From Pseudopyrenochaeta lycopersici (Eukaryota > Ascomycota > Dothideomycetes > Pleosporales > Pseudopyrenochaetaceae), in the NCBI GenBank assembly GCA_003313425.1, contig NHZP01000086.1, forward strand, positions 62,001 to 126,000: a stretch of 64,000 bases of DNA. Reading direction: 5' to 3'. This document shows positions 8,062 to 64,000 of this stretch, piece after piece. A program made the translations under genes and the position numbers. The notes beneath the pieces were generated by a model that was not told the DNA's origin, ran no database searches, and saw nothing but the letters and a program-made list of their open reading frames with translations. Positions within the stretch are counted from its first letter, which is position 1; every line of letters begins with the position of its first letter.

Positions 8062-9407
8062 TGGCTATGGTACCTAGTAGTCCCAAGCGACATGCTATGT
8101 ACTAAACATTCATATAGCCTCAATAGCTCGATATCTGTTCTGCAAAGCTCTTTGCGACACATTTGCTTTGGGCGCTATGACTTCAAAGCCATGAATGCAA
8201 CCCGCATAGATGTGCAGCTCGCAGCTGATGTGCTTCTTAGCATACGCAAGACACTCATTGCGGAAGATGTCCAGCTCCCCAACATCAATGAATGTAGGTG
8301 GTAGACCAGCAGCATTCTCCATCCTCGCTGGTGCTGCAGATGGTCCAACACTCTCTGTGCCCCGACTGGATCCCAGAATTGAATCCCAGCCGATGCGGTT
8401 GTCTTCTGCCTTCCAGGCAGCTATATCGTTGACTGATGGATATGGATCAATGTTTCAATCGTCTAGACGAGAATTTGCTTGGAAATTCGAGGCCCTCTAT
8501 GCTCAAGATTATAATGCTACCACTGCGTCAGCGATATGGGTTGTATTACGTGCTGGCCTACCTGCCACTAATGCTGCTGCAAGGCTACCTCCACCACTGT
8601 CTCCCATCACCGCTATTCTTCCAGCATCCACACCAAACTCCGAGGCACGGTGAAACATATAGAGCAGTGCTCTATGCGCATCATCAACATTGGTTGGATA
8701 CTGCGCTTCGGGTGCCAGGCGATAATCTGGCGCGAAGAATGGCACACCCGTCTGCGCCACTATCGTGCCCACAATGCCATCGTACACATCGAGTCCACCA
8801 CCAGCGACGTATCCTCCACCATGAAGGTACAGAACACCAGGACCTCCGTTCCGCAAATCTGCTCTCTCGTATAAACGGCAATTGATTTGGTAACCATCGC
8901 TGCCAGCCACCGCAAAGTCCTTTCTTATTATGTCCTTCGGGATAGGGGGTGACATCTTACTCAACATGGTGGCAAACATGAAGCGCCGCCCTTCGATGAC
9001 ATCTAATTTGGGTGGATCTAATGGTTATGGATGCGGCGCTGCAGAGGAGACCTGCTTGAGGATGGCTTGGATATCGGGGTCTAGCGTGAATGACATCGTA
9101 TGGAAACATCAATTGTGAATGTATGGAAGCAGCACAGGGAGGATGAAGTTCGAGAATTGAGAGAGATAGATGAAAAGAAACGGCATTCATAAACGTCCAC
9201 CTGATATATCCTAATCTCCTATTCCGAGATCGGCTAGACCAGGTCCACCATGGACCAATTGCTGAACCTCTCTCTAATCCGATACACAACCCATCGCTTT
9301 AGATAGACAGCAATGGGCCTGTGACGTTTTAAAATATCACCATCCACGATCGGGCGATATCCCTTGCTGGTATAAGTCGCAGAATAAGCCCCTGTCTGAA
9401 GGCACAG
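8062..9407. repeat. Segmental duplication B, copy 1
   Basis: Matches 18434-19797 over about 1.35 kb in the same orientation, roughly 90-95 percent identical by eye. It covers the esterase and its 5' flank. The last 100 bases (gacgttttaaaatatcacc to gaaggcacag) exist a third time, inverted, at about 22425-22525. The copy ends exactly where the hAT element at 9408 begins. Confidence 0.75.
8110..9096 (-). pseudogene. Alpha/beta-hydrolase fold-3 (HSL-type) esterase, copy B1, inactivated
   Basis: Starts at 9096 (MSFTLDPDIQAILK). It shows the oxyanion motif HGGGY, YRLAPEAQYP, the nucleophile motif GDSGGG, the Asp region DVGELDIFRNE and the His region CIHGFE. It is the diverged duplicate of 18477-19485. 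Copy B1 has a TAA stop about 24 codons in (PHP-stop-PLDPP, where B2 has a sense codon) and a 12 bp deletion near 8230 (AYAKKHISCE against AYAKMLFLAGISCE). It also shares the frame problem in the middle described for B2. It is therefore a pseudogene. The duplicated block runs from about 8062 to the hAT terminus at 9408. Confidence 0.75.
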
Positions 9408-9629
9408 CAGACCTGGACATCGTTCGTCTAAACGATCAGTAAACGATGATCGATCGTTCGGCGAACGATCGTCGTTCGGCTATCGTTAGCTTTGTTATTG
9501 TTCTTGTTTATAGACGCGTCGCAAAAGCGGGGAAGCGGAGAAGTCAACAGATGAGATCATGAACGCGTTAATACAGTTTTACTGTAAATTCGTTCCATTT
9601 CTCTTGTTACTCCTTTATCGACTGCCAGC

Positions 9630-42220: not shown

Positions 42221-44645
42221 TTAGATATCACCCTCTATAGCCTCTGGATCACACGGGAGGCCTATTCCGCCCTCGGCTGAGGGCCTAATATGACCCTCTC
42301 GCAGCCAGTTGCCGATACACTCAATCTTCTCAATGCTCTCAATCCGTAATCGTAGCCTATCCCACCTAGCTGTGCGCCTAGCTCCTGAAAAGGTCCGCTC
42401 TGGCTCCGCTGACTCTGCTGGTATAGAGAGGATATCGATAGCCATGCGGCTAAGCCGTGGGTAAGCTATACGAACGTCCTCACTACACCACCATTGAAGA
42501 GGCGTAGTGCCCTCAGCAAGCGCGATAGGAGCCTCTGAGATAAAGTTATCCAAACCGTCCTTGCCACGTGTATTCGCCATAGTCTTATTCCGCACCTCTA
42601 AGCGCATCTTTGAGAGCATCGTGTCCTTTCGCTTTAATGAAGCAGGTACAGCTAAGGATTGCTCCGATAGCTGTGTCTCGACATCGCGATTATACTCGTT
42701 CTCCCAAAGTCCACGGGCGGCGGCAATCGCGCTCTCGTGCCATTCCTCGGGCCAGCATTCTTCGATGTAGCTCTTGCGTTTAGAAGGATCGAGAAGGAGA
42801 GCAGCGGCGTATACAGGGACATCCTCAGTCATAGTATAATACTTATCGAGTATAAACCAGCACATATCGATAGAGTGAACTATGCGATCATCGCGAGTGC
42901 TCGGCTGCGAGTAGTGGGCCTAATTAGCTAATTAGCATGCCATATAAGCTACGGATAAGTAGGAAGATGTGAAATTAGCCGTATACCTTCCACTTCTCGC
43001 AGTGTCCTAGGAGAAGGTCCAGCAGCTCAAGGGACTGTGAGATTGATGCCATATCGCCTTCAGCTTCCAACGTAGCCTCATGGAAAGGTTGGAGGAATTC
43101 TAGCGTTCTGCCTAGCATCTCCCAATCCCTACTAGTAAGAGTATTACCCTCGAGATCCTTATCATGCTCAGCAGTAAACTGGATGATCTGTGTCTTCTCC
43201 TTTAACGCAATAGCGATAACCCTGTACCATGAGGACCATCTCGTGATATTGTCGACACCTAGCTGCTTACCTACAGTATCGTACCATTGATCGTTATGTA
43301 GAGCTGAGCTACGTACGTAGACTGCAAGCATATGAAGCTTTGCTAGCGCTGGAATGCCTTGCCAGCCAGCGAAGCGCTCGTCGCTGTTGCTGGCTTGCTG
43401 CTGCGTAATTGCGGCTCGCTTGCCCCTCACCTTTGCAGATCTTCTCGTAGGCTGCTCCCTCCGCTCTTCCTGCTGTATTGTGGTATCCAAACGTGCCGCA
43501 ATCTCCGCCGGATCCAGCTCATGTAATTGCTGTGAGAACTCCTCTAGCATAGTTGAACCGGGTTCATCAGCAGTAGCTTCGAGTGCAGCTCTAAGTGCTT
43601 CTTTTGAGCGAGCGAGAAGGAAGGCTTGTAAGGCGAGATTGATAATATGGCCGATGCAGCGGATTCTGCGGCATTTGTGAGGGTACTCGACCTATATAAT
43701 AATTTAGCATAGTGTACAGCAGCATTAGCAGCTTAGTATGAGTTAGACTTACACCTAATTCCGCCTCTAAAATCTTTGCTAGCTCCTCTAAGCAGGTGTC
43801 GTTTGATGTAGCATTATCGCCTGTATAATAACCAAGGTTTTGAGCAGTGATATTGAACTTCTGTAGCGTACTGGCAATCAACCTAGCCTGCACAGCGCCA
43901 GAATGGCTGTATTTACACTCTAGAAGTCCTAGTAGTGCTTTCTGAAGCTAAAGTCCTCATTAACCCATTGAGCGCATATAGCGAGTACGCCATGTCGATG
44001 TGGTGATGTCCAGAGATCAGAAGACATGTGTATCTTCGACTGCGCTGTTTGAAGGCTCTCAGCAAGCTGTGAGCTATATAACGAGTAGTTCGAGTTAATA
44101 TAGCCCATAGCCTGCTTTCGGTCGCTGATGAGAAGGTCTCCAATAGCTGGATTGCATGCCAGAGCTAGGTCTCGTAGCTCAGAGTACTCAACTGCCGAAA
44201 ACGGCAGTCTGCGCCTTGTTAGAAGCCCCACAACTGCCTCAATGTAGACTTGCTTATTAAAACAGTTGCGGAGAGCAGCCTGAGAAGGACGAGAGATGAT
44301 ATACGAATCGATAGCGCCAGACGAAACGCCCGAGGTAGATATACCAGATAGAGTATCATTTGCAGCCTCGCTCGCTCGTATAAGGGCTCGGTGGGCCGTT
44401 TCTGCATGGTGTATAGCGTTGCCAGGCACTCGGTTCGACCATGGAGGATTCTGACAGTGAAGACAAACGTAAGCACGATGTCCCTTCGTCCTTCTGCGCT
44501 TTAGGCCAGATTCAACTTGGAAGTGTTCGTCGGGATAATCTACATAGAAAAAAGCGTTGAAATTCCATGAAAGTTTCGATGCAAACGAGCCAATAGAAGG
44601 GTTATTAGTCCATGAGGTTGATATCTCAGAAGCCTGAGAAGCCAT
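42221..44645 (-). pseudogene. hAT transposase of hAT-4, one frameshift
   Basis: ATG 44645 (MASQASEISTSWTNNPSIG). BED-type finger (RAYVCLHCQNPPWSN ... AIHHAETAH), then MSSDLWTSPHRHGVLAICA, LGYYTGDNATSNDTC, CRRIRCIGHIINLALQAF and VDNITRWSSWY. The C-terminal block is YPRLSRMAIDILSIPAESAEP. Two introns fit: 43692-43752 (GTAAGT...TATAG) and 42920-42986 (GTATAC...ATTAG). The frame is lost once, near 43945, between EDFSFRK and LLGLLECKYSHSG, where one base appears to be missing. Apart from that about 750 residues are preserved. The N-terminal 165 or so codons are repeated identically in hAT-6 at 50183-50679. Confidence 0.85.
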
Positions 44646-44759
44646 AGATGCTAATAAGCAGTATGTTAATCCCGGAGTGGATGCCGGTAGTAGTAGGCAG
44701 GGAAGGAGATAAGAACTGAGTTTTTCTTGTAACAGGTTTCTAGCTACATGTATATACAA

Positions 44760-45147
44760 AGGAGTGAACTATCCAACGTAGTGCCAAGTAGGCTGCAGGT
44801 AGGCAGTAGCCGAGCTAGCGCAGGCAGTAGCAGGCAGCATGTTCGGTAACATCTGAACTCACGTGAGAGGTCAATAGTTCATGGGTTAGATGCTCTAATT
44901 GACGAGTTTTCTTTATGATCTAACTAAGAGATCAGATGTTATATGAGCCAATTAGAACCACCCCTCTTATACGAATATGCATGAATATAGAGACGTAAGT
45001 ACATATTATATGCATATATTATATGAATATGCATGAATATAGATACGTCAGTACATATTATATTCATATGTTATATGAATATGAATATGAATATATTCAT
45101 GCATATGCATATAAGACGTTATTTGAATATTCATATAGCCATGTATG
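44760..45147. repeat. hAT-4 right subterminal AT-rich repeats
   Basis: Within the element but outside its gene. 44975-45147 consists largely of tattcatgcatat-type repeats, including two near copies of atgaatatgcatgaatatag at about 44979 and 45027, and ends in the terminal repeat. Inverted and near-identical at 49681-49870. Confidence 0.7.
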
Positions 45148-48071: not shown

Positions 48072-49680
48072 ATGCCGCCAGAGGGGTCGCAATCGTCTTA
48101 TCAGGCTGCTAGCCAGTCGAGAAAGCGAACTCGATCATCCCTTGACGCTCCTTCGCCCTCTGCACAACCGCCATCTGATGGAGCTGACTTGACCTCGGAT
48201 GAAGAGTCACTCACAGAGCTGGAGTCTGAGAACGTTCTGGTCCCTACTAGGCTGCAGCGCACCAATAAGGATAGTAGACCTGTTTTTCAATCGCCTTTCG
48301 ACTACTCCTGGGTGGATTTTGATGATCCGGCGCTTGACGGCCTCACTCTGCCATCAAAGGCTATCAAGACTCGCGCATGGTGGTGGAAGTATGGAGTGCC
48401 TCTCGAGGCTCGAGTGGATCAAGGCAACGGCCGGAGGGCTATTCTAACCTATTTCTTATGCCATACGTGTTATACGATTGGCCGGAGGTCAACCTGCAAG
48501 CTTAATATCACCAAAGGCCGCTGCAGTGCCCGAGATCACTTTAGAAACCTCCATCATACGACCTTCGAAATAGAGAAAGACCTTCCTCACGACGCCCAAT
48601 TTGACGACGAAACTCTCCTAGATAGGCTAGATAGAAACGACCCTGTGCAGCGCCGGATCCTGAACGAGCTCACCCAGTTATTTAATCAAGATATCTCTAA
48701 CAAGGACCTCCTAAGATGGGTGGTTTTCGACAACATCCCCTTCTATAAGCTTCAGAGCCCCTATTTTCGAACACTACTCTCTCGCCTAACGCCCTTTTCG
48801 AATCGATCAAGATTGCCAACTGATCGCACAGTCCAGAGGTGGGTTATGCAAGAGTTTAAGCAGCATAAGGCGGATATTAGGAAGCTTCTTACAAGCTCTT
48901 GCAGCCAAATCCACCTGTCCTTTGACGTCTGGACTTCCCGAAGGATAAAGGCTCTTAATGGTGTTGTCGCTCACTGGGTTGACAAAGATGGCAAGTGCCA
49001 ATCAGCTCTTTTAGCTCTTACAGAGTTAGCTGATACTCATGGTGGAAAAGAGCTCTGCACTGACGTTCTAAGAGTTATCAACGACTACGGGATTCAAGAG
49101 AGGATTGGTTACTTTGTACTAGATAACGCCACAAATAACGATAAGGCAGTAGAGCTTATTTGCAAGGAGCTCTGCTTGAATCCTCGCTGGCGCCGCCTCC
49201 GTTGTTCTGGCCATATAATTAATATTGTCGCCAAAGAGGTCCTCTGGGGAGCAGACTACGAGATGTTTGAGAACGTTGTCGCCAATATTAATAACCTAAA
49301 ATATGAGGTTACCGCATGGCGAAAGAAGGGCCCAATTGGCCATCTCGCGACTATTGTTCGATGGATTCGAAGGTCTCCAGGACGACTTCAACGGTTCAAT
49401 AACGCCCAAAAGACTATATGGGAAGAGAATCACCCAAATGCTTCTGGCGATTCCCAGATTCTTAGCCTTATTATGAATAACTCGACTCGATGGAATTCAA
49501 CCTACGACATGATAGTACGCGCCCTAAGGCTCCGTAGAGCAATTGAGCACTTCCTAGACCTTGAGACACTCCGTCTTAAATACCTGGTAAAAGAGCGGGT
49601 CGAAAAACCCCTCTCTGAGCGGCCTGAGGACTCAGTGACGAGGATCATTCTCCAGAATCGTATGAAGCCTGACGACTGGG
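48072..49680 (+). pseudogene. hAT transposase (hAT-5), truncated by hAT-6
   Basis: ATG 48072 (MPPEGSQSSYQAASQSRKRT). Related to the hAT-3 enzyme (FDYSWVDFDDPAL and WWWKYGVPLEARV against FDYSWVDWERIS and WVWKYGVPIEQK). The BED finger YFLCHTCYTIGRRSTC, then LRWVVFDNIPF, IHLSFDVWTSRRIKALNGV, IGYFVLDNATNNDKAV, RRLRCSGHIINIVAKEVLWG and NNSTRWNSTYDMIVRAL are all open. At MKPDDW the gene is cut by the terminus of hAT-6 (49681). The C-terminal dimerisation domain is not found anywhere beyond, so about 200 residues are lost. No internal stops before the cut. Confidence 0.85.
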
Positions 49681-50679
49681 CATACATGGCTATATGAATA
49701 TTCAAATAACGTCTTATATGCATATGCATGAATATATTCATATTCATATTCATATAACATATGAATATAATATGTACTGACGTATCTATATTCATGCATA
49801 TTCATATAATATATGCATATAATATGTACTTACGTCTCTATATTCATGCATATTCGTATAAGAGGGGTGGTTCTAATTGGCTCATATAACATCTGATCTC
49901 TTAGTTAGATCATAAAGAAAACTCGTCAATTAGAGCATCTAACCCATGAACTATTGACCTCTCACGTGAGTTCAGATGTTACCGAACATGCTGCCTGCTA
50001 CTGCCTGCGCTAGCTCGGCTACTGCCTACCTGCAGCCTACTTGGCACTACGTTGGATAGTTCACTCCTTTGTATATACATGTAGCTAGAAACCTGTTACA
50101 AGAAAAACTCAGTTCTTATCTCCTTCCCTGCCTACTACTACCGGCATCCACTCCGGGATTAACATACTGCTTATTAGCATCTATGGCTTCTCAGGCTTCT
50201 GAGATATCAACCTCATGGACTAATAACCCTTCTATTGGCTCGTTTGCATCGAAACTTTCATGGAATTTCAACGCTTTTTTCTATGTAGATTATCCCGACG
50301 AACACTTCCAAGTTGAATCTGGCCTAAAGCGCAGAAGGACGAAGGGACATCGTGCTTACGTTTGTCTTCACTGTCAGAATCCTCCATGGTCGAACCGAGT
50401 GCCTGGCAACGCTATACACCATGCAGAAACGGCCCACCGAGCCCTTATACGAGCGAGCGAGGCTGCAAATGATACTCTATCTGGTATATCTACCTCGGGC
50501 GTTTCGTCTGGCGCTATCGATTCGTATATCATCTCTCGTCCTTCTCAGGCTGCTCTCCGCAACTGTTTTAATAAGCAAGTCTACATTGAGGCAGTTGTGG
50601 GGCTTCTAACAAGGCGCAGACTGCCGTTTTCGGCAGTTGAGTACTCTGAGCTACGAGACCTAGCTCTGGCATGCAATCC
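49681..50679 (+). mobile_element. Truncated hAT-4-family copy (hAT-6)
   Basis: Begins with the same terminal repeat catacatggctatatgaat and runs inverted and near-identical to 45147-44150 of hAT-4, including the AT-rich subterminal part. It carries the first 165 or so codons of the transposase (ATG 50183, MASQASEISTSW to LALACNP). The match stops abruptly after atgcaatcc (50679). The following sequence belongs to the large-gene region. The second terminus is absent. Confidence 0.9.
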
Positions 50680-50919
50680 TACATGGCAGCGAACCGACAG
50701 GATCCAACTCAATCATGCCTCTTTGCGGCTTAGTCCCGGTTCCGGTTGAGCCGCTAACCGTAGTTGGTTAGATTCCGCGTCCCCTGAACCAGAAGTCAGG
50801 GGCGACCCCTTCCCCTACAACACAGCACTGCAGAAAGTTACAACTGACTGACTGACGACTACTACTTCTTACCAGCTGTTGTATTCTTGCTAGTGATAAG
50901 CGACTTTGATATTATTCTT
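50680..50919. other. Upstream region of the first large tandem gene
   Basis: No gene seen. Includes a short inverted pair cccggttccggttg / ggttagattcc and ttcccctacaac; may hold the promoter. Confidence 0.3.
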
Positions 50920-53900
50920 ATGCGCTCTACACGACCATGGACTATCTATACTGGCAACCCAGTCGATCAAGGATGCGTCCTGCAACACGGCTCTACCAAC
51001 TCAACTCAAGCTCTAACTACAGCTACAGATACGGTAAATCTAGCTTGCCTTTATCCTCGATATTGGTAATCCCTTCAGCCTTTATATAATGCTAACGTGC
51101 GAGTTCTCTATAAAAGGAGAAGAACAATAATGCACCAGAGATTATAACCTACCTACAGGGCTACGGTTACCTGCTCTGCATTTCCTGCAAAAGTGTGATT
51201 CCTTTCAAGCTGTTATACCATCACCTGCGACACTACCACAATATCAGCTATGGGGTGTGTCAGGCGATAGTTGGCCAGTACGACGGCTTGCCTGTAGCGC
51301 AGAAAGATGCAGATGTCACGCCATTACCTAGCGGCAGTTTGCAGCTGCCATTCCTCGCTGCTCCGGTCCGTGGATATAGCTGCTTGCATTGCACCTGGCT
51401 CGCGGTCAATTGGGGCGATTTCCGGAAGCATTTAACCGAAGCTCATAATCTGAGAAAGGAAAAAGTTCAGAGAGAGGATGTCTCATGCTTCCTTCAACAA
51501 TGGATCTCGTACAGGAAGATAGGGCGATATTGGCGCGTAGACATGACCCAGGCAAACACTATTAACTCTCTAAAATCAGGAACAGAACAAGAGCGAGCAG
51601 AAGAACGGCTAGCACCGGGGGGAGAAGAAGATTGCTGTGACCCAGATATGGGTGAGCTTCTCCGCATGGAGGACGAGGAAGAGCAAAGGCTCGCAAATGA
51701 AGTCCAAGTAAACTCATCTCTCCCAGTCGAACTAGAGCACGATGAGAATACACCCTGGCTTCGTCAGTCTGGGTGGCCGCGTTGGTTCGCATGCAGACCG
51801 CTTCATGTAATTGCAGCTACATCACAGCTTCCCTCGCCCAAACACGAAGATCTCTATCTTGGATCGTGGAACGGCACTGAATGGATTAGCTGCTCATCTA
51901 CAGAGAGAAAGCTCTTGAGCCTTGTTGAGCTTGCTACTTGCGTGTTGGATAGATGCGAGGAGACCATATCGTCTACATCGCGTGTTCTTCGCTGCTGGTT
52001 ACGTAGTTGGGGTCCGCACTACTGTCCCATCCCATTCGAGCTTCCAAAGCGACAAGCTACCCAAAAGAAGTACCGCTCGTACTGCTACCGCTTTCTTTGT
52101 TATGTCTTTCGAGCGAGGCAGGTTTGCCTAGCACAGGGCCAGGACGTGTACGATGTCTACGGCCTTACACTTACTGCACCCCAAGCAGAGATAGTAGATA
52201 CTATCTGGGCGGAGTTGGGCGAGTTCCTGCCAAATAGAGCGGGGGGAGACCTGTCCGATCCCTTGTTACCATTGCCTCAACCATCGCCTTGCATCCTCGA
52301 AACAACATTTCGGCTGCTCGTTCTCTTCTGGACGGACACTTCAATAGACGGCGATTCAGGAGTGAAAGCGGTCGCTCACTTCTCTGGCGTGCTAGGAATC
52401 CACCCGTATAAGCTAACTCTCCGCACCGCATACGACTATACTCCGTATCTTTCAGCCTTAATCTGGGTAGGAAGGCTAGTCCTCCTTGAATATGCACTCC
52501 CATTGCGAGCTTATAGTTCGCTGAAACCTCCTCTCCAGGCACGCGTGGCATATCCAGATCAGGAGTTAAGGCTGCTCCGAGAGATCCGGCCAAAGTACCT
52601 CCAACGCGGAACCTTCGCGCCTCTTGGGTATTTGGTCGAGCGCCTCCAACATGGCAGAGCTATAGCAAAGCGGGAAGGTGCGAGGACCAATATCTCCTGG
52701 TCGCCTGATGGCCAGATGCTCGAGGTCAACGGATCTCATGTCACTTTAGGGGAGCTGCGCTATACAGTCCACTCCCTTCTGGATAGAATTAATCACGAAG
52801 CTCGCGAGTTGATGTTTCACTGGTGGCCTGATGTCAATCTGCATAAAATTAAGGACAACCTTGTAAGCTATCGACCAGGCTATTCATTCTTAGAGGAGCC
52901 TGAGAATGACCTGCGAATGAGCTTTAAGCATCTTAGCCGCCGAGCCTTCTCACATCAGGGGGGGAGGCTAGCCCTGCAAGGCTGTGGGCGCGGACGAGCG
53001 CTTGATTATCTACGGAGACGTGACAATCTGGTCAGACTCCTCTTTGCGGGAATTCATATGACCATCGGCATGCCCGCGAGGGGTGAAGAGATCCGCATTA
53101 TTCGCTGGGCGAACACTATCGCTGTACAACGCAACATAATTATTCATAAAGGACGAATAATGATAATATTCTCGTATAATAAAGTATCTACGACAGCGAA
53201 TCACTCGTTCTATATTGTTCGGGTGCCATGCCCAACAGTAGAGCGAGCCTTATTTCTATACTTAGCCTATATCAGGCCATTTAGCGACTTACTCACCCGA
53301 CAATTAAAGCTCGTTAACGAAAAAACAAAGACTAATCCACATCTCTTTTCTATTAGCAACCGTCCTACAGTCTGCTTCAGCGCAACTGATTGCTCGAAGA
53401 GCCTAGAGCAGGCTACGGCAGCCTGCCCTATTCGGCTTCAGCTGAGCATCTATCGTCACATCGCTGTTGCCATTAGCAAGAGGCATATACCAACTCTGCT
53501 AGAGCCATTCGATCCGAATATTCCAAAGGACCACGATGGCTTCCTTCATCTGTTAGCTTTCCAGACAGGCCACACCCCGTCGATTCATGCAAGCGCGTAC
53601 GCTCTCGAACGAGGATACCCAGCTAGACTACAGCCAGAGCTAATCGACCGTTACTTTGAAAATAGCTTTGTCTGGCATCGATTTTTAGAGATTACTGCGG
53701 AGAGATATATAGACAACGGATTAGATAGAGGCCAATTAGATCAACAGATGCTACGAGCACTGGCGCCAACGACGACACCAGCACGTCAAGCAGCAGATAC
53801 TAGCGCATCAGACAAGGATCTTCCCGTGCTAGATACTGGAGATGAGGAGATGGTAGAGGTAAGAAGGCTTGAAGAGAGGCAGCTGCAATTAGGGAAGCGC

Positions 53901-54098
53901 AGCCTGAATAGCGAATCGCGCTCCTTCAGGCGGGAACAGAGCGTATCACGTCCAAGCAGAAGGAGCAGCAGCGACAGCAGCAGCAGCAGCAGCAGTAGTA
54001 GTCTAATGACCACAAAAATCGTTGATATGCAGCAGCAGCTTGACGCTCTCCTCCAGGAAAGGGCTACGAAGCGTCGAAAGCGCCACTTACGCCCTTGA
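50920..54098 (+). CDS. OrsD-like zinc finger + tyrosine-recombinase-like protein 1
   Basis: Large protein (about 1017 residues) of unknown function, not in itself a helicase. The main exon is open from 51159 to TGA/TAG at 54098 but has no early ATG. An intron 51034-51158 (gtaaat...ctacag) joining an exon from ATG 50920 keeps frame; this start is tentative. Zinc-finger-like blocks are CISCKSVIPFKLLYHHLRHYH and GYSCLHCTWL...RKHLTEAH, as in OrsD (DUF3505). The core carries MPARGEEIRIIRW (Arg at 53079), FSYNK, IYRHIAVAI (Arg at 53454) and QTGHTPSIHASAYAL (Tyr at 53598). This matches tyrosine-recombinase boxes in order and spacing. The C-terminus is Ser-rich, then ends with MQQQLDALLQERAT and basic residues. 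Paralogous to the next two genes. Confidence 0.65.
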
Positions 54099-54472
54099 TA
54101 TCTAGGTGCGGAGCGAAGTCAATCTAGTTGGGGCTCCCAGCTAGTCTTCCTTAAATCTGGAGTTATTACTCTGAATATAGTTACTCAATGCAAAAGATGG
54201 CAAGAAACTTGATAGTATCAACACCAGTGTCTGTAGCCAACAATCTTGTACTTAATGTTGATTACTAGAATATAGTTACTTATAACTAATATTTATAACT
54301 AATATTTAAATCCTACATTATATAGCAAGATAATTCTATTGCATTAAACTATGTTATATTCGTCGCAAACGAGAGAGTAATTATCTGTACCCCCTGCTGC
54401 ACCGCAGTACCTGTTACAGGCTTAGATACTCACCTGCGAACCTGCCACCGCGTACCTCTCAAGCTGCGGCGA
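54099..54472. other. Spacer between large genes 1 and 2
   Basis: AT-rich. The frame of gene 2 is open upstream of its ATG from about 54334 and encodes IICTPCC...DTHLRTCH, a finger-like block, so the 5' end of gene 2 probably lies here behind an intron (acceptor ttatatag at about 54331). Confidence 0.45.
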
Positions 54473-57352
54473 ATGACGATAGCACGATTTGATAACCTGC
54501 CTGCTGCACAATCCTTTAATGATCTAGCGCCTCGAAAGGATGGATCGACGCTACTCTCTTACCTTCCTCCACCTGCACCCGGATTTTATTGTCCATGCTG
54601 TACAGATTTTAGGACTATTAACTGGCGTCAGATGAAAAGACATGCGAAGGTGGAACATGAGATCAGCGCTCCTGAGTGCGATCAAGATCAATCCAGATAC
54701 AAATGTTACCTGCAGAGCTGGACGAAGAACTGGCCAAAATACTGGGTAGTAACCCTGGACAACAGCTCTAGCCAGCAAGAGATCCATACACAACCGCAAT
54801 CTACAAGGGAAAAGGAGTACCTAACGCGAATGGATGATGATGAAGAAGAAGAACAGCGGTTTGATGGGGAGCTCGGCACGATCGCTCTAGACGCAGAGCT
54901 AGAGCACGACGAGAACACCGAGTGGCTTCGGGGCTGTGAATGGCCGACATGGTTTGCTCACAAGCCTGTTCATCTTATCGTCGCAGCTGCAGCATTGCCC
55001 TCCGCGAAAACATTAGAGGATCTCCAACTAGGCCTTTGGAATGGTTTCGAGTGCGTAAGCCCAGCATCGACAGAGAGGATTATTTGGAAAATACTAGAGG
55101 CCAGCAAGATCGTGTTTCAGCGATGCGAGATGACACTCCAGCAGACTCCGCGTGGTTTGCGTTGCTGGCTTCGGAGCTGGACCCCTTCTTTCCTTCCCTA
55201 CCCATTCGAGCTGCCTCAACGCGAACAGACCCGACGAAGATATTACATCATCCACGAGCGGTTCCTGTGCTACATATTCCGAATCCTAGCACTGTCGCGT
55301 AGCATAAGAGAGCCCACAAGCGTAATCTCTGGGTTGCAGCTGACTACAGCTCAGCTAGCTATGATGAACCATATCTGGGACCATCTTTCTGTTGTCAGCC
55401 AGCAGGCAGACTGCGGGGTATTGCTCCAACCATCACTAGATGGTGTCCACGAGAATCTATTCCAGCTTCTTGTCATGTTTTGGACGGACCAGTCGCACGA
55501 TGGAAACATGAGCCGTAGTGCTATCATACATTTTTCTGGGGTTTTAGGAATTCATCCTATAGAACTATGTTTCCGTAAACCCTATGATTATACGCCATTC
55601 ATATCAGCGCTCTTGTGGGTGGGACGTCTAATCATACTCGAGTACGCCCTCCCGCTTGCACCATATAATCATCTCAAAGTTCCTTGGCCTGAGCGCACTA
55701 CCTACGCCGACCAAGCACAGCGATTGCGTGAGCACATCCGACCTAGATATCTTCAACGAGGAAGCCTTGCACCAGCCGGTTACCTCATTGAACGGCTCCA
55801 GCATGGACGAGCGATTGCTAGGCGCGAGGGCCCTCGAACGAACATATCCTGGTCTCCGGATGGCTTAACGCTACATATTGCCGACATCAAGGTTCACATG
55901 CGACAATTTCGAGAAACGATCCACAGCGTTATAGCAGGTTTGCAGAGTCTTGCACAAGAGCTCCTTTTCGATTGGTGGCCAGACATCCAGCTCGATTCCG
56001 TGCAAGATAATCTTGCGACTCACCGCCCTGGGTTCTCGTTTCTAACACACCCCTCTAACAAACTCCAGGGGTCTTTCCGCGCTGTGGATAGACTGGCATT
56101 CTCAGAGCAAGGCGGGTGTTCACTAGAGACAAACAGAGGAAGGCTTAAGCTGAAGCAGTACCTAAAGAAATGCGACAAGTTTGTTCGTCTACTTTACGCA
56201 GCAATGCACATGACGGATGGCATGCCAGCGCGTGGGGAAGAGTTTAGGGTGTTACGCTGGGCCGATACAGTCTCCGTGCGCCGAAATATCTTTATCTACA
56301 AAGGAAGGATAATACTTGTTTTTGCGTACAATAAAGCAAACACGAACACTAACAATTCCTTTTACATTGTGCGCTCTCCCTGTCCTTTAGTCCAAAGGAT
56401 CCTTTACGTGTACCTCGTATATATACGCCCGTTCTGCAGGCTTGTTAGCCGAAATCTAAGGCCCTGTTCTAAAAGTTCGACAAACCCTTACTTATTCAGC
56501 ACGCACGAGAGCGCAACAGCATGCCTTACCTCGGATCAGGCTCACTCGAGCCTAAAAAGTTCAACAGCTGGATGTTCCACTCCCATGACTACTAGTCTAT
56601 ACAGGCAAATAGCGGTCAGCATCGCCAAGAAGCACCTCCCAGCTCTTGTTACACCATTTGACCCTAACACGCCTAAAGATTATAATGGCTTCCTCCAGCT
56701 TCTTTCTTTTCAAACAGGTCACAGACCAGTCACCCATGCCAGTGCATATGCGCTTGAGCATGGATTTCCGACCAAACTCCAACCAGATCTTATCGACCGA
56801 TACCTCGTGAACAGTCACATGTGGCACGAGTTTACATTAACCCGAGAAGAGGACGTTCTAGATTATAGTCTAGCAGCTGCACACTATGACCCAAGCAGTA
56901 CCTCGCGAGTCAGCTATTGCCCAGACAACGTCACTCTAAGGACGCCAGAGTGTGTCACACCTGAGACGAGCGATGTAGATTCATCAGATAGAGCCTCGCC
57001 TACACGGACCCGAGATCAAAGACAAAAAAGAGGGAAGAAGCGACAAAGAGAAATTGAGAGTTGTAGTCCTCTAACAAGAAAGATTCATATTATGCAGCGA
57101 CAATTGCACAATCTTGTCCAAGAACGCGCTACGTCAAAGAGAAAACGAGCTTCATACCAACATACCAGCCGAGATTACGGAGGGCCTAATTCAGTAACCG
57201 AGCTAGAGAACAGTGATTTGGAAGATAGAAGAGTGCTTCAGGCAGGGAGTGGAGTTCTATATGTACATAAAAAGGGTGTGAAGCGCAAAGTCTACAATTC
57301 AGAAGCGCACAGTACTCGCCCTTCAAGATCTAATAAGCGGAGGAAAGGTTAG
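54473..57352 (+). CDS. OrsD-like zinc finger + tyrosine-recombinase-like protein 2
   Basis: Paralogue of gene 1. First ATG 54473 (MTIARFDNLPAAQSFNDLA) gives 959 residues, but the conserved finger upstream (see 54334-54472) suggests a missing first exon. GFYCPCCTDFRTINWRQMKRH is the second finger-like block. Shared blocks with gene 1 are ELEHDENTEWLRGCEWPTWF, GVLGIHPIELCFRKPYDYTP, YLQRGSLAPAGYLIERLQHG and RTNISWSPDG. The recombinase-like core has MPARGEEFRVLRW (Arg at 56231), FAYNK, LYRQIAVSIAKKHL (Arg at 56603) and QTGHRPVTHASAYAL (Tyr at 56747). The basic C-terminus has IMQRQLHNLVQERAT and a nuclear-type KKRQRE stretch. No stops or frameshifts within, so it looks maintained. Confidence 0.7.
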   Translation: MTIARFDNLPAAQSFNDLAPRKDGSTLLSYLPPPAPGFYCPCCTDFRTINWRQMKRHAKVEHEISAPECDQDQSRYKCYLQSWTKNWPKYWVVTLDNSSSQQEIHTQPQSTREKEYLTRMDDDEEEEQRFDGELGTIALDAELEHDENTEWLRGCEWPTWFAHKPVHLIVAAAALPSAKTLEDLQLGLWNGFECVSPASTERIIWKILEASKIVFQRCEMTLQQTPRGLRCWLRSWTPSFLPYPFELPQREQTRRRYYIIHERFLCYIFRILALSRSIREPTSVISGLQLTTAQLAMMNHIWDHLSVVSQQADCGVLLQPSLDGVHENLFQLLVMFWTDQSHDGNMSRSAIIHFSGVLGIHPIELCFRKPYDYTPFISALLWVGRLIILEYALPLAPYNHLKVPWPERTTYADQAQRLREHIRPRYLQRGSLAPAGYLIERLQHGRAIARREGPRTNISWSPDGLTLHIADIKVHMRQFRETIHSVIAGLQSLAQELLFDWWPDIQLDSVQDNLATHRPGFSFLTHPSNKLQGSFRAVDRLAFSEQGGCSLETNRGRLKLKQYLKKCDKFVRLLYAAMHMTDGMPARGEEFRVLRWADTVSVRRNIFIYKGRIILVFAYNKANTNTNNSFYIVRSPCPLVQRILYVYLVYIRPFCRLVSRNLRPCSKSSTNPYLFSTHESATACLTSDQAHSSLKSSTAGCSTPMTTSLYRQIAVSIAKKHLPALVTPFDPNTPKDYNGFLQLLSFQTGHRPVTHASAYALEHGFPTKLQPDLIDRYLVNSHMWHEFTLTREEDVLDYSLAAAHYDPSSTSRVSYCPDNVTLRTPECVTPETSDVDSSDRASPTRTRDQRQKRGKKRQREIESCSPLTRKIHIMQRQLHNLVQERATSKRKRASYQHTSRDYGGPNSVTELENSDLEDRRVLQAGSGVLYVHKKGVKRKVYNSEAHSTRPSRSNKRRKG

Positions 57353-57642
57353 TATATAGATCCTATAACGCTACTCTGCTCTAAACCTAGTACCAAGATA
57401 AGGCCAGGGGTGAGGCCTTCCTGAGAGGATAGGGGTTTCCGTACCCGAATGGTGCCCGAATAGGCTTAAAGAATGGAATATTCAGGGGCTCTATTTTTAC
57501 GGCGAAAGTTGTACACTACAGTCACTTTTTTTTATTAAACTTTTTATACAAAAACTACTTACTAGCATCTAGAGATTCTTATTTTATAACTTGCAGCCCT
57601 AAACAGTAACGTGTATACTAAGATAGGGTTAGGGTTTACCCC
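57353..57642. other. Spacer between large genes 2 and 3
   Basis: Holds a 15 bp telomere-like piece, tagggttagggttta (57624-57638), directly before the open frame of gene 3. Otherwise AT-rich and without a gene. Confidence 0.5.
57624..57638 (+). repeat. Interstitial telomere-like repeat
   Basis: Two TTAGGG-type units plus a partial one. Short enough to occur by chance, but it sits at the 5' edge of a telomere-linked-helicase-like gene. Confidence 0.4.
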
Positions 57643-60600
57643 TAAATATAGAGTTCTGCTGGGACGCACGGATCCCAGTCGCTCGATCAACAACAACATC
57701 ACAGACAGAGAGCAGCGCAGAAAATCAGCCTACACGCTTATCGCAGTCAATCGAAGACTCTATATGTTTTCTTGAAGAGTATGGCGTTATTATCTGCAAG
57801 CAGCATGCGACTGCCGTACAAAATCTTGATGTACATCTACAGAAGCATCACACTGTAGAACGCGAGACGCGCAAAGCAATCGTTGAACGCTATCAGGACA
57901 AGCAGATTAAGAGCCCGCAGGATGTCGAGTTACCGGGACCGCTGGGGCCGCCGATTCAAGAACTTGGGGAGCCGCTTGATGGCTTCCGCTGTGAAGAAGA
58001 ATATTGTGGTGACATAACTACTAATTTGAATGTACTAAAGATACATCTAAAAAAATCCACCAGCAATCATGGAAAGGCGAGACAAGTTCGCTATATGAAA
58101 AAGTAAAAGTTCAGACGTTCTTTCGTAATGGAGGACAGCAGCGATATTTTATTGTTAATGTAGGAGGTAGTACTGGCGGTTTGGTGGTTTCCCGTGAAGT
58201 GGCAGATGTGGTAGAGCATCGGCTCGCGCAATGGAACGCAACGAAACAGATTCTCAAGGAAAGAGCGCAGGTTATGGAAGAGGAAATAGCAAAGACAGAC
58301 AGGACTGGCTGGTTCAGTCGGACAGGGTGGCCGGAACATTTTGCGAATCGTAATCTGGTACATCTTGCTCATCAGATCCGACTACCCGACCGAGGTGATA
58401 CGAAGCTTAAGCTTGCAGCAGAGCTAGTCGAGCGACTAATAGAAAGAAGCGTAAAGGGGCTATCAACACTTGCACGAGAGACAAGACGATGGCTGAAGAG
58501 CGCGCAGCGGAAAGGGCCCGACCCGCGACCGCTCGCTCGACTGCAAAACCCGGAGAGTCAGGCACGATATGCGAGCTACATGGTTAAGTTTATCTGCTAC
58601 ATGCTGCGTATCATCGCCGACGAAGAGAGGATGGTTCAGCGTGGCTATGGTATAGATAATGGCCGCGATGATGATAGTGATGGCGATAGCGTCGTGTCTG
58701 ACAGTAGTGTGGATTTCAAGTCCCAGTCAGATCGAACGGGAAGCGACGCCGAAAGCGATGACAATGACCGCCCGCGCCGTAGCAAGAAGAAGAAGAAGAA
58801 TGGCATAGATATGATGAAGGATGCACGCGAGCTATTCTGTTGGCACGGCGAGCAGAAGGAACTGGCGATACGGCTGTGGGACTGGCTAGACAAGGACCCC
58901 GAGGAGAATAGAGAAGCTCAGCTTGACGCACTGCTAGAGGTATTTGCATCGTTTATATTTCACAACTCAGGCGACCGGCCGCTTAGTAGTGGGTTGATTC
59001 ATTTTCTAGCCGTTATGGGTATTGACGCGGATATGGGGCGCTTACGCACTGCGAAGAACTATTCGTACATGCTGGCTGGAGTCGTATACTGCATACGCGT
59101 GCTTGGCGTAGAAAAGCTACTGCCGTCAGCACTCCGCGAAGAAAATTCAGACAGAGAGCGTAAACGCTTCTTAAAGATGAGAAAGCAGTATCTTGCCGAC
59201 GGCGCGTATAGCCTGATGAGCGAGGCTATCAACATGTTGGCGTATGGGAAGTTTGTTGCGCTCGCAGCGGGCAATTCTGGCAATGCGTACTGGTCAGAGG
59301 ATAAGACGATTTTTTATCTCAACGGCCGACCGATTTATATCAGCCGCTTTCGCACTATGGCACAGAACATTGTCGCCGAGGCAGAGAGTATGCTGTGGCA
59401 AGAGCTGCTCTGGGTTGCGGGGGAGAGCGATCGATTTACTATCGCACTTGAGCGACTCGTTGACGATGTTACGTTTACTCGGCGAGGGGAGTCTTTTATT
59501 AATAATGCTGAGAATCAGCTGAATAACGGACTCAAGTGGATGCTCACACAGGCTGAGCAGAGCGGAGAGGGCCGTAGGCTTCAGTCGAGCGACGGGAAGT
59601 GGAAGGTAAAGCAGGTAAAGCGGTATCTGCGTTTGCTCAATCGCTTCTTGGAGCTACTGCTGCTGTGTGTGCATGTGACATCTGGGCAACCGGGCCGTGG
59701 ATCTGAGGTAACGACAATGCGGCATCGGAACGGGTCGCTGCAGGACCGCAATATCTTCATTATGGACGGACAGGTGATGACTGTGGTCCGCTATCACAAG
59801 TCGCAGTCACAGTGGGACAAGCCGAAGATCGTGCCGCGCTTTCTTCCGCCGCGGTTGGGGCAAATTATGGTGGTGTACTTGGTATACTTGCAGCCGTTTC
59901 AGGAATATCTTACTGTAGAGGTGCTGGGCGGCAATATGAACGACTATGTATGGGCGGATGAGCAGGGACCGTGGGGGACGGATCGACTCACGCGTGTGCT
60001 CAAGCGAGAGACAGGTAAGAGGCTGGGCGTAGAATTGCATACGCTAGACTATCGACACACGGCAGTTGGCATCGGCAGAGTTGTTGTAGGAGAGTCGTTT
60101 AGCAGAGGGTATCAAGACGAGGTCGGGGAAATTGAGGAGGCAGAGGTAGACGAGGCGGACGAAGACATCATCGAGCTACAGAACGCGCGGTCGACCGTAA
60201 TAGGGGTAGGGAACTACAGCGTGCCGATCGATATTATCAAGCATCTCAGCATACGCTCGATCGAGGCGTTCCGGCCGCTGAGTACGCTGTGGCATCGCTT
60301 CTTGGGGCTTAAAGGGCGGAAGGATGATCAAGAGGTATGGTCAGGCGGCACCGGTACGGCAAAAAAGCGGCTAGAGCGGAGTGACGAGGATGAAGGTCGA
60401 GACGAAGGGCTTGTTATGCGGCCGAAAGAGACGCGAATGGAAGATGAGAGAAAAGATGCGGTCCGCAGGGCGATGCAGCAGGTGCTAGGTCGAGAAGACG
60501 TAGGGTTTCGATCTGTACAGCAGGAGCAGGCAATACATGCTGTGCTCGATGGGCAGACACCGCTGGTAGTCGTGCTCCCGACGGGCGGGGGCAAGAGCTT

Positions 60601-62125
60601 GCTGTTTACTGTGCCGGCTTGTATAGAGAAAAATGGAGTAACGGTAGTTGTAGTACCGTATCGAGCGCTTATCACGGACTTGGTAGAACGCATACAAGCG
60701 TGCGGAATTGACTGTATAGAGTGGAAGCACGGCGAGAGCAACCCGGCATCGATTGTAGTCGTCAGCGCAGACGTGGCAGGCGACATAACAAGCAACGGGA
60801 ATTTTGTCAGCTACGCAGAGATGTTGAACAGCAAAGGAATACTGCGGCGGGTCGTTGTGGACGAGTGTCATCTTATCTTTACAGCAAGTGACTGGCGACA
60901 GAAGCTGGCGATGCTGAAGAATTTGCGGTTGTTGCCGTGCCCGCTGGTACTGCTCACAGCAACACTACCGCCGACGCGAGAGGGAGAGCTGGACAGAAGC
61001 ATGATGATTCGGTGCGCGAGGTATATTCGAGCAAGCACGGTACGGCCGAATACGCGCTACTTTGTGTCATGGTGCGAGCGCGAGAAGCTGGACGAGACGG
61101 CGCTTATTATGTGCAAGCGACAACAGCGACTGCTACTGCATCGAGGGGAAAAGGGGGTGGTATACTGTCGGAGCAAACAGCAGTGTGACGATATGGCAGA
61201 GGCGCTAGGGTGTCTAAGCTATCACGCCGACGTACTTGACCGTGCAGGGCGGTTAGCAGAGTGGCTCGAGAAGGGCGGACTTATTGTAGCTACGTCGGCG
61301 CTGGGAACAGGGGTTGATTACCCCGGGATTCTGTATATACTACACGTAGGGATGCCGTGGAGCATGATTGACTACGCGCAAGAGAGTGGACGTGGAGGGC
61401 GAGGCGGGGAACGGGTTGACTCGGTGGTGCTGGTGGCGCAGGGTGAGGTAGAGGAGACGATGAAACAAAAGAGCGAGGACTTGGACGTGCAGGCAGTAGG
61501 CTTATTTTTAATAGGCAGCGGGTGTCGACGGGGGCTGATGAGCAGCTATCTTGACAGACAGCAGGTCAGCTGTAACGATATCGAGTCGGCTGGGTGCGAC
61601 CGTTGTGGAGAGGGGCTGAGAGAGTGGCTGGATGAGCAAGAGAAGGCGAGCAGGGAGTGGCAGACGGTGCGAGAGAAGATGGATGAGCTTCGGCATGGGT
61701 GTGTTATATGCTGGGTGCTTGGACAAGGGATAGAGGAACAAGAGGGTGTATGGACAGAGCACCGTACGATGCAGTGTACTGCGTACGATGGAGCAAGTGG
61801 GAGAGAAGTAGATGCGTTTCGGCGGAAGATTTGGGATAAGGGAGGTATTCACAGCTGCAGGCGGTACTAGGTAAGTCAAAAGTACTGCGCAACAGGGGAA
61901 GATGATAAGGCGAAATGTCAATGGCCGAATGTAATTATACCGATGGTATTTACAGCGATAGGATTCGGCGACGGAGTAGAGGTTATACGAAAGTGTGGGT
62001 ATACCGGTGATAGTACCGAGGAGTATGCGAAGTGGCTTGGGGGGCGGTATAAAGCGCGAGTTTGGGGAGAGTTTTTTAGCAACGCGATGGTAACGGCGAT
62101 ACAGATTGTACTACGATTTAAGTAA
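57643..62125 (+). CDS. OrsD-like / recombinase-like / RecQ-helicase fusion (telomere-linked-helicase type)
   Basis: Third paralogue, about 1450 residues if whole. 57643-58055 reads YGVIICKQHATAVQNLDVHL and RCEEEYCGD...KIHLKK, OrsD-type fingers. After a seven-A run (58049-58055) the frame shifts by one and continues open to 61870 (KVQTFFRNGGQQRYFIV ...). The recombinase-like core is GQPGRGSEVTTMR (Arg about 59695), RYHKSQ, LDYRHTAVGIGR (Arg about 60051) and ARSTVIGVGNYSVP (Tyr about 60214). The RecQ helicase follows: PTGGGKSL (I), VVVDECHLI (II), LTATLPP (III), GVVYCRSKQQC (IV), VATSALGTGVDYPG (V) and YAQESGRGGRGG (VI). TAG at 61868-61870 precedes an in-frame tail (KYCATGEDDKAKCQWPNV ... RVWGEFFSNAM) to 62125 that is typical of the family. 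No early ATG is visible. It may be a recent pseudogene. Confidence 0.7.
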
Positions 62126-62333
62126 GAAGAAGAAGTAGAGAGCTAGAAATAGAAAAGTAAGGGAAATTAGAGATTCGTTTCTGTTAGGGACGGAAGTTTT
62201 ATTTAAGCAAAGATAGTGATTCAAGTTGAGAGAAGGGCTTACGTGAGAGAAAAAGGGTCGGGGGTAGGCCCGTCCGGTGCAGAAAAAGAAGCAGAGCTTT
62301 GTAGAGAAGTAGAAAGAAAGAAGAGAAAGAAAA

Positions 62334-62470
62334 ACCCGGCCGAACCGCTTAGGTCAGGGAGAGAAGAGGTAGCAAGGAGAGAAGGAAGAAACCCGGCCGA
62401 ACCGCTTAGGTTAGGGAGAAAGAGGGGAAAGAAGAGAAAGAAGAAACCCGGCCGAACCGCTTAGGTCAGG
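62334..62470 (+). repeat. 56-57 bp tandem repeat, three units
   Basis: Cores acccggccgaaccgcttagg at about 62334, 62391 and 62447, separated by variable purine-rich spacers (gagagaagaggtagcaagga and similar). Shorter relatives of the core (ccgctta(a/g)g) occur at about 62672, 63128 and 63168. Confidence 0.8.
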
Positions 62471-62723
62471 AGAAGGAAGAGAGAGCGCCCGCAAACCGCG
62501 AAACAGCAGAGAGAGGGGAGAGGATTTGGGTTCGGGCCGGATCGAAAGTTAGAAAGGCGGAAACTGACTTGCGTCCCTGTTGGAACAGAAGTCAGAGGCT
62601 GTAAGGTGTTAGAAGATAAAAAACAAACGTAGGAAGATAATTACTAGGTTTAAGAGATAGTTTAATAATTAGATAACCGCTTAAGGCTAGAAAGAGCGCG
62701 TACCTGGGTTCCTGTTATCTGTA

Positions 62724-62801
62724 ACCCGTAACGGCGACCCGTAACGGCGACCCGTAACAGTGACCTGTAACAGTAACCCGTAATGGCAGTCTATAACTGT
62801 A
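62724..62801 (+). repeat. 13 bp minisatellite, six units
   Basis: Units starting at 62724, 62737, 62750, 62763, 62776 and 62789 follow acccgtaacggcg with increasing decay (acccgtaacagtg, acctgtaacagta, acccgtaatggca, gtctataactgta). Confidence 0.85.
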
Positions 62802-64000
62802 ACCTGTTTTTTAGCAGAGAGGAAGGAATAAGAGGCAGGGAAAGCGTCTGATTTAGGAGAAGAGGAGGGTAGGTAGACTCGTTAGTGCAGAAAAGAAGTT
62901 GAGCGCAGCAGGACGAGAGGGCAAGGGCAAGGAAGAAAGAGTAGGTGGAGGGCCCGTTAGGTGTTATAAAGAGAAGAGAGGGCGGCTGTAAAGCGTAGAA
63001 GAAGGGGACGTAGCATAAAGTTCCGTTAGAGTTAGAACCGAAATCAGAAAGATAACACTGTAGAAGAAGAGAGATACGCGTAAGGTATCACACGAAGAAG
63101 TATTACAAGAAAGAGAGAAGTATATAGAGAACTGCTTAGGTTAGGAGATAAATAAGATAGTAAAAGGCAACCGCTTAGATTAAAAGAAGAAGACAAGAAA
63201 GAAGAAGAATAGTAGGAAGATAAAATTATAGACAAAGAAAATATATAAGAAAAGAGAAAGAGAAAGAGAAAGAGAAAGAAGTAGATAAATATATTAGTAG
63301 AGTTATTAGTATAGTAAATTAGTAAAAGTAAAAGTAAATAGAAATAAAAATAATAAATTAATAAAATAGTACAAGGGTTAGAGATAAGGTAAAACGTGTT
63401 AGATTTAAATAGAGAGAAAGGCATAAATAGTATAGTAGTGATAGAGTAGGTAGAGATAAGGGTAAGTAGGAGGAAAATAAGAATAAAAAAAAATATAAGA
63501 ATAAGGTAGAATTTAGAGAATAAAAGTAGATAGAGAAGAGATTATTATATAGGATAGGGAGTTATTAAAGAAGAAGAAGAGTGCGTAGAAAGAAATTATA
63601 TAAGAATTAGAGTTTAATAGATTAAAAGTTAGTAAAGAGTAATTTTTAAGGTAGAGGTATAGTATTTTAAAGTAGAAGAAGAGAGTAGAAAAGTGTATAG
63701 AGAAAAGAAGTAGAGAGTTAGTAGAAGTTAGAAGGAGAAGAAAAAGAGTTATTAAAGAAAAAAGAAAAGTAGGATTAAGGATTTTAATTTATTTAGGTTT
63801 AGTGTTAAAAGTATTTAGAGTTAAGAATAAGGTAGAAGAGGAAAAGGGTTAGAGTAAGAGAAGTTTAGTAGTATAAAGAGGAGTAAAAAGAGGAGAGGAG
63901 GGGAAGATTAGGTTTTAGAGGAAGTAAAGAGTAAAGAAGAAGAGAGTAGAATTTAAGGTTATCAGGGTAGTAAGAGTAAAAAGAAGAAGTAGAGGATAGT

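Follow-up and report, generated by a model that had tools for sequence, protein, structure and literature searches.

Genes at the chromosome ends of a fungus, among them telomere-linked-type helicases, appear to bear a tyrosine-recombinase-type domain and to begin sharp-edged mobile elements

Introduction

Three adjacent genes of Pseudopyrenochaeta lycopersici raise the question of what kind of enzyme they encode, and whether that enzyme could explain the spread of helicase genes among fungal chromosome ends. Telomere-linked helicases (TLHs) at these ends have been described since the 1990s, among others in a 1998 paper on Ustilago. To our knowledge, there is no agreed account of how they spread. 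In the portions of the papers available to us, multicopy genes for RecQ-type helicases at chromosome ends are described for the TLH regions of Fusarium oxysporum (PMC12857005), for UTASa and UTASb of Ustilago (PMC10532341) and for the subtelomeric RecQ genes of Mycosphaerella graminicola (PMC4522978), and an OrsD domain is mentioned for UTASb (PMC10532341). A text search of the available portions of PMC12857005 and PMC10532341 returned no mention of "recombinase", and the available text of PMC8381367 names a telomere-linked helicase and an integrase in unrelated places. In the part of the literature searched, no paper combined a telomere-linked helicase, or OrsD, with a tyrosine recombinase.

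The DNA analysed here, called the window, comprises 64,000 nt of assembly GCA_003313425.1 (contig NHZP01000086.1, 62,001 to 126,000, forward strand), and all coordinates refer to it. An earlier note on this DNA had claimed that three adjacent paralogues carry recombinase-like motifs in the same order, and every motif that it quoted was confirmed.

Results

The three genes and their parts are as follows.

51144..54098, + strand: gene 1, OrsD zinc fingers and a tyrosine-recombinase-like domain (open reading frame, OrsD match, residues)
53079 (R), 53181 (K), 53454 (R), 53571 (H), 53598 (Y), + strand: codon starts in gene 1
54362..57352, + strand: gene 2, OrsD and a tyrosine-recombinase-like domain (open reading frame, OrsD match, structure model, fold match, residues)
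56231 (R), 56333 (K), 56603 (R), 56720 (H), 56747 (Y), + strand: codon starts in gene 2
57768..58058, + strand: OrsD part of gene 3, in a frame different from that of the helicase ORF, with a stop near 58104
58181..61870, + strand: gene 3, a tyrosine-recombinase-like domain fused to a RecQ-type helicase
59696 (R), 59798 (K), 60053 (R), 60188 (Arg at the His place), 60215 (Y), + strand: codon starts in gene 3

When whole open frames were searched, OrsD scored above the Pfam cut-off of 26.6 bits in genes 1, 2 and 3 (36.7, 37.4 and 51.8 bits); among the listed ORFs only, gene 1 alone matched, at 18.8 bits, which is under that cut-off. The C-terminus of gene 3 is a helicase (DEAD and Helicase_C in Pfam), which was absent from the earlier note. 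The window copy of gene 3 is broken, with its OrsD part and helicase ORF in separate frames, and by eye its ORF stops short of a C-terminus conserved in relatives. The helicase motif was found in only one of three clades, that of gene 3; among 83 proteins sampled from the remaining two clades, none has it.

The recombinase-like residues are R629, K663, R754, H793 and Y802 in gene 1; R587, K621, R711, H750 and Y759 in gene 2; and R506, K540, R625, R670 (occupying the His place) and Y679 in gene 3. That gene 3 keeps the spacing to the Tyr, as had been proposed, holds: the distance from the His or Arg to the Tyr is nine in all three genes, as it is in Escherichia coli XerD. Conservation was counted in three alignments, excluding gapped rows. 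In the gene 1/2 family, whose 49 rows are the two window genes and 47 of 68 matches, R is present in 46/47, K in 44/45, R in 42/42, H in 40/40 and Y in 41/42. For the family of gene 3, aligned in 93 rows (gene 3 itself with 92 proteins longer than 1100 aa among the 120 matches listed of 226), the counts are 92/92, 92/92 and 93/93 for R, K and R, 92/93 for the Arg at the His place and 93/93 for Y. A third clade, whose 64 rows include many with gaps, has R 41/42, K 37/37, R 33/34, H 31/32 and Y 30/33. Loss of the Arg and Tyr among homologues had been named in advance as grounds for rejecting a recombinase; Arg, Lys, Arg and Tyr are instead kept in all three clades. Only 12 of 341 catalytic-domain columns hold a single residue at 90% or more across the clades, and R, K, R and Y are all included. 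The chance of four chosen columns all falling among these 12 is 9e-7, a flattering figure because the four were chosen beforehand from three of these sequences.

Judged by sequence, then, R, K, R and a putative nucleophilic Tyr appear in the order and with the conservation expected of the superfamily. The first His of the box II HxxR motif is not conserved: genes 1 and 2 have Ser three residues before the Arg, and gene 3 has Leu there. Superfamily members vary at this position; in Starship captains, according to the available part of PMC12506042, a Tyr replaces this His. The second His (or Trp), nine before the Tyr, is present in the gene 1/2 and third clades and is replaced by Arg in 92 of 93 proteins of the gene 3 clade. 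For gene 1, dN is well under dS. Near-identical copies of gene 2 have no excess of silent changes (silent versus not, 3 versus 2 and 1 versus 4), and the C86 and C56 copies differ by only 2 bases within the compared stretch.

Searches at the sequence level returned no known recombinase. The window's three genes matched no Pfam recombinase family at E up to 10, and neither they nor six divergent relatives matched PF11917 (DUF3435) at the same limit, a limit to be read with the HMMER filters in mind, which discard most matches above E 0.1. Pfam showed no recombinase in the six divergent relatives, nor for 49 relatives among 25 of the 54 families listed, and PF00589 had no match in the whole genome at E up to 1. 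No known recombinase was found for five proteins in PHROGs or for gene 2 and profiles in a PDB sequence search (in one search, among the best 60 of 205 rows). HHalign against an 81-sequence XerD profile was not significant and no better than a reversed control. The recombinase likeness may have been missed earlier since Pfam and the XerD profile show nothing.

The predicted structures point to the superfamily. In a second structural comparison, which covered 567 chains for gene 2 and 415 for gene 3 as ranked by Foldseek, the top 28 rows for the gene 2 AlphaFold model and the top 32 for the gene 3 N-terminal model were all tyrosine recombinases or topoisomerases, and rows of the tyrosine recombinase superfamily headed both lists well above others. 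The recombinase catalytic-domain fold that had been suggested is thus borne out in the models, both of which align best with tyrosine recombinases. The Foldseek E-values themselves were weak (best 0.07 for gene 3; for gene 2, a sole recombinase row listed at E 9.1, rank 41): no row reached E ≤0.001 in the PDB for either model, or in the viral library for that of gene 2. The Tyr lies in low-confidence stretches of both models (749-766 in gene 2, 645-688 in gene 3). These comparisons support a predicted tyrosine-recombinase catalytic-domain fold in these proteins.

The DNA ahead of the genes gives a separate line of evidence, for which four features are needed.

50678..50701, + strand: left terminus of the gene 1 element, a 24-bp pattern whose first two bases, CC, also occur in the empty target
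57416..57440 (end approximate), + strand: left terminus of the gene 3 type, beginning CCTTCC[CT]GAGA
49681..50679, + strand: interrupted transposon-like repeat, 100% identical to 45147-44149 up to the junction
44149..45147, - strand: corresponding stretch of a copy of that repeat without interruption; this copy continues past 44149 and displays the empty site

A sharp left edge, 170-500 bp ahead of the OrsD start, marks each of four subfamilies, and the preceding DNA differs. The 24-bp terminus of gene 1 occurs in the genome as 11 exact and 4 near copies (at most 3 mismatches), with 14 distinct flanks among the 15; a reversed-pattern control gave 0. The gene 3-type terminus is common to four other places, each behind a different flank, and three matches start at 57416-57419. 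The copy of the repeat at 49681..50679 ends at the junction and other copies read through this site; the window element interrupts the repeat, and the intact copies represent the empty site. A whole-genome search for the missing distal half of this repeat found nothing, so the data fit either insertion or end replacement. A hAT label for this repeat was set aside, as it came from inspection of the translation by eye only, and neither the repeat nor the ORF at 48072-49697 matched a transposase in Pfam.

Some copies excepted, the recombinase gene comes first, close to the element's 5' edge. Among the 31 termini that belong to the 1481-aa type, 15 are not followed by an OrsD match, and no recombinase match was found in the 4 kb read from the gene 1/2 termini C5 and C28. 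The termini C36 and C62 are alike for 91 bp and then continue into different sequence (four other termini lie outside this inward reading). A search for a right terminus found none. A candidate right edge at 2477 bp, where the match between C28 and C5 ends, was rejected: an ORF of C5 crosses that point, and the C28 side continues into a transposase-like ORF (by eye). Copies also interrupt other repeats, and some are situated far from chromosome ends. The proposal of an "unnamed mobile or telomere-maintenance system" gains independent support from the sharp edges and the empty site.

Other copies reach the chromosome ends themselves. In one subfamily some 13.2 kb separate the edge from the telomere repeats at two chromosome ends, and identical sequence abuts the repeats. 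Helicase-less relatives extend to telomere repeats. No telomere repeat run was seen in the 2.7 kb between the window and the end of its contig. Near-identical blocks occur on several contigs, and many copies are full of stops.

Discussion

We consider it probable that this divergent tyrosine recombinase family mobilises fungal elements concentrated at chromosome ends, and that the RecQ-type fusion in one clade is the TLH architecture. The support is computational: the fold, residue conservation, sharp left edges whose flanks differ, a single empty site, and units extending to telomere repeats. Each element would open with a family-specific left terminus, followed 170-500 bp inside by a first gene, encoding OrsD and the recombinase, that would be transcribed inward. 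The OrsD fingers and an N-terminal helical domain may bind this terminus; at an R-K-R-[H/R]-Y centre the tyrosine would cut, and the terminus would be rejoined to a short target, which may be CC, as in the one empty site, or CTAAC, as repeats suggest. The helicase could open or process DNA at the junction or at the chromosome end, and exchange of chromosome tips is a conceivable step.

The same fold and chemistry could instead serve the host. A nicking-closing enzyme of the recombinase/topoisomerase IB kind might work with the RecQ helicase to resolve recombining chromosome ends, in parallel to BLM, which pairs with topoisomerase III, with the elements spread passively by subtelomere recombination. 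We regard this as unlikely: passive exchange should vary the breakpoints, whereas the edges are exact and family-specific, the sampled proteins of two clades lack the helicase motif, and copies lie within other repeats, in some cases far from the ends. It is likewise improbable that the elements are passive subtelomeric repeats like Y', with old edges from one ancestral rearrangement spread by ectopic recombination and the recombinase domain as a relic. Gene conversion among ends fits the near-identical blocks and the identical telomere junction on two ends, and the stop-filled copies agree with a relic, but a single 24-bp edge meets 14 distinct flanks, the active-site columns are nearly invariant across clades, and gene 1 has a dN well under its dS. 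Finally, the motif order could have arisen by chance in an unrelated helical DNA-binding protein. The failure of known recombinases to match at the sequence level suits this idea, to which we give very little credence, as two separately predicted models concur, with recombinase-superfamily rows topping each list, and the residues are conserved across clades.

Among known systems, the proteins resemble Xer and Cre recombinases and type IB topoisomerases in predicted catalytic-domain fold and in the order R, K, R, H, Y, although significant sequence similarity to XerD is absent. Cryptons are recombinase-encoding DNA transposons of fungi. The likeness to them is one of kind, by description alone. 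Starships, which have DUF3435 captains, are alike in the R, K, R, Y core and in having the recombinase gene lead the element, a few hundred bp in from its left edge (for Sanctuary the available part of PMC12506042 gives about 350 bp). They differ in that the genes described here have no DUF3435 match (separate DUF3435 copies exist elsewhere in the P. lycopersici genome) and have OrsD fingers, a helicase fusion and a chromosome-end bias. Starships are marked by two edges with short direct repeats and by an empty site; here a left edge and an empty site were seen, and a right edge was not found. Published TLHs, likened by description rather than sequence, share multicopy RecQ-type helicase genes at chromosome ends and, for UTASb of Ustilago, an OrsD domain; here a recombinase-like domain lies between OrsD and helicase, and element edges are defined. 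On our best reading, these are mobile elements of a new tyrosine-recombinase family in fungi, concentrated at chromosome ends, and TLHs are recombinase-helicase fusions.

More tentatively, and with considerable doubt, these may be chromosome-tip elements, in which the recombinase, with a built-in RecQ helicase in one clade, would attach the left terminus at an internal site and supply an end of its own, including the telomere, in place of the distal arm. If true, this would be a recombinase route to ready-made chromosome ends, with telomere-linked helicases as its enzymes.

The left termini can already serve to search for insertions that differ between strains. The family would add a group of tyrosine-recombinase elements in fungi alongside Cryptons and Starships, and we know of no other such group with a recombinase-helicase fusion. 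The recombinase domain and defined left edges offer a direct, testable answer to how telomere-linked helicases spread, namely as the enzymes of mobile elements.

Domain content and conservation

The window covers positions 62001-126000 of contig C86 (128,749 bp) in a 62.7-Mb genome of 188 contigs, whose telomere repeat is TTAGGG. Its three adjacent genes have the following open reading frames.

51195-54098, gene 1 ORF
54473-57352, gene 2 ORF
58181-61870, gene 3 ORF

The ORFs of genes 1 and 2, as listed, contain no Pfam domain above cut-off. Because a whole-frame search placed OrsD, above cut-off, from 51144 in gene 1 and from 54362 in gene 2, 5' of both ORF starts, the true starts of these genes are probably upstream. 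Gene 3 has Pfam DEAD and Helicase_C domains, and its family profile matched BLM best and RECQ5 second. Its OrsD part (57768-58058) is in a different frame from the ORF, with a stop near 58104, and by eye the ORF ends short of the C-terminus kept in relatives; on these grounds we consider the window copy to be broken. Longer open frames of this kind occur in other places, for example 1497 aa at C28:53800.

We found at least 68 relatives of gene 2, at least 226 of gene 3 (120 listed) and, in a third search, at least 64, two of them already known; these are lower bounds, as scoring was confined in each case to the nearly 8000 candidates richest in shared words. All organism-named relatives among the matches listed are fungi. 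Between the gene 1/2 clade, the gene 3 (helicase) clade and a third clade, HHalign probability was 100 over nearly the whole catalytic domain. An earlier note had recognized a recombinase-like Arg, Lys, Arg and Tyr in the window genes, and their conservation across homologues bears this out: when the clades are merged into one alignment (139 sequences), a shared residue reaches at least 90% within each clade in 12 of 341 columns, four of which are R587, K621, R711 and Y759. Nine residues before the Tyr, two clades have an invariant or almost invariant His, and the helicase clade has Arg. Among the helicase-clade proteins sampled, 45 of 53 carry a Walker-A-type motif (42 of the 43 longer than 1100 aa); none of 39 third-clade or 44 gene 1/2-clade proteins does.

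Left edges of the elements

Similarity between copies of the gene 1/2 type starts abruptly at window 50678. The 24 bp from this position occur 15 times in the genome (up to 3 mismatches), compared to 0 in the control, and 14 of the 15 begin with CC. Their flanks comprise 14 distinct sequences, one being common to C57 and C121. The flank in the window is a repeated, transposon-like sequence, and this copy ends at the element junction; the same repeat runs uninterrupted across the site in seven other copies, six of them 99-100% identical (including the one at window 44149) and the last 87%. Since CC forms both the end of the shared repeat part and the start of the terminus pattern, the gene 1 element proper begins at TAC. 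A 541-aa ORF 5' of the interrupted repeat (window 48072-49697) looks hAT transposase-like by eye, with no Pfam match at E up to 1. Two gene 1-type left termini, on C28 and C5, are followed by a long opposite-strand ORF instead of a recombinase; these are possibly elements carrying other cargo, or non-autonomous ones.

The 1481-aa subfamily begins TACTCAGGTATG (31 copies when 2 mismatches are allowed). With a single exception, the mismatches fall in the two bases preceding TAC, which are CC in 15, CT in 6, AC in 5, TC in 3 and TT in 2; the three flanks examined all differ. The telomere-linked helicase (TLH) type, with a 1604-aa frame, begins CTAACAGCAAAG in 24 exact copies, and the nine flanks examined comprise eight distinct sequences; its recombinase residues are known from related proteins rather than from this genome's copies. 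Some TLH-type flanks are subtelomeric repeats in which, elsewhere, GATTCG is followed by CTAACC, and one resembles a retroelement integrase by eye. The gene 3 type begins CCTTCC[CT]GAGA at window 57416 and in four other examined places. An OrsD frame lies at a near-constant distance behind 23 of 24 TLH-type, 16 of 31 1481-aa and 7 of 15 gene 1/2-type termini.

Two further observations concern individual copies. In the C130 copy, the gene 3 leader (window 57847) contains a 2.8-kb insertion (C130 about 7044-9819) with a 10-bp overlap that has the appearance of a target duplication. Copies of the 1481-aa type on C3, C5, C13, C15, C18, C31, C69, C71, C112 and C177 each have 12 TAG and 8 TAA stops, a pattern suggestive of repeat-induced point mutation in a single ancestor.

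Position relative to chromosome ends

From the edge of the 1481-aa type to the contig end, C17 and C62 extend 13,331 bp and 13,274 bp, respectively. Both end in TTAGGG repeats preceded by identical sequence, and the units agree in the parts compared, on C17 all but about 7 kb. The ends of C14, C29, C45, C10 (start), C67, C90 and C135 lie inside this stretch, to which they are 99% identical. The telomeres of C5 and C18 adjoin different sequences, and the C17/C62 terminal stretch has no match at the far end of C4, C56 or C10. On contigs of known size of at least 50 kb, the termini face the nearer contig end in 19 of 20 cases for the 1481-aa type (of 31 in all), 10 of 11 for the TLH type (of 24) and 10 of 13 for the gene 1/2 type (of 15), the last often lying further inside.

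The stretch that separates gene 3 from the following gene (window 62125-64000, continuing to contig position about 66180) is purine-rich and C-poor on the plus strand (GC skew 0.55 and AT skew 0.35 over 62001-64000) and resembles subtelomeric repeats that adjoin other element edges. About 450-2749 past the window (by eye), a fourth OrsD and recombinase-type relative with stops, its OrsD at C86:126474, is truncated by the contig end.

Probable mobile elements at chromosome ends

Fungal chromosome ends are already known to carry RecQ-type helicase genes, in Ustilago together with OrsD (PMC12857005, PMC10532341, PMC4522978); the available excerpts of these accounts make no mention of a recombinase. 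The captains of Starship elements, as described in PMC12506042, have layout and core residues in common with the genes here, but the window genes have no match to DUF3435, the captain recombinase domain. DUF3435 genes do occur in this genome (29 matches, on C5, C46, C51, C63 and others).

A search for the right edge of the element gave none. The absence of the other half of the interrupted repeat would be consistent with either a right side missing from the assembly or a lost distal arm. Enzyme-free recombination between chromosome ends should not yield exact edges, which favors mobility. Given the predicted fold, the conserved active-site signature, and an enzyme gene beside a sharp, family-specific edge with differing DNA in front, the likeliest reading, in which we have considerable confidence, is that these genes belong to recombinase-driven mobile elements. 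Such a unit may either insert, leaving the host's own end distal to it, or replace the chromosome end.
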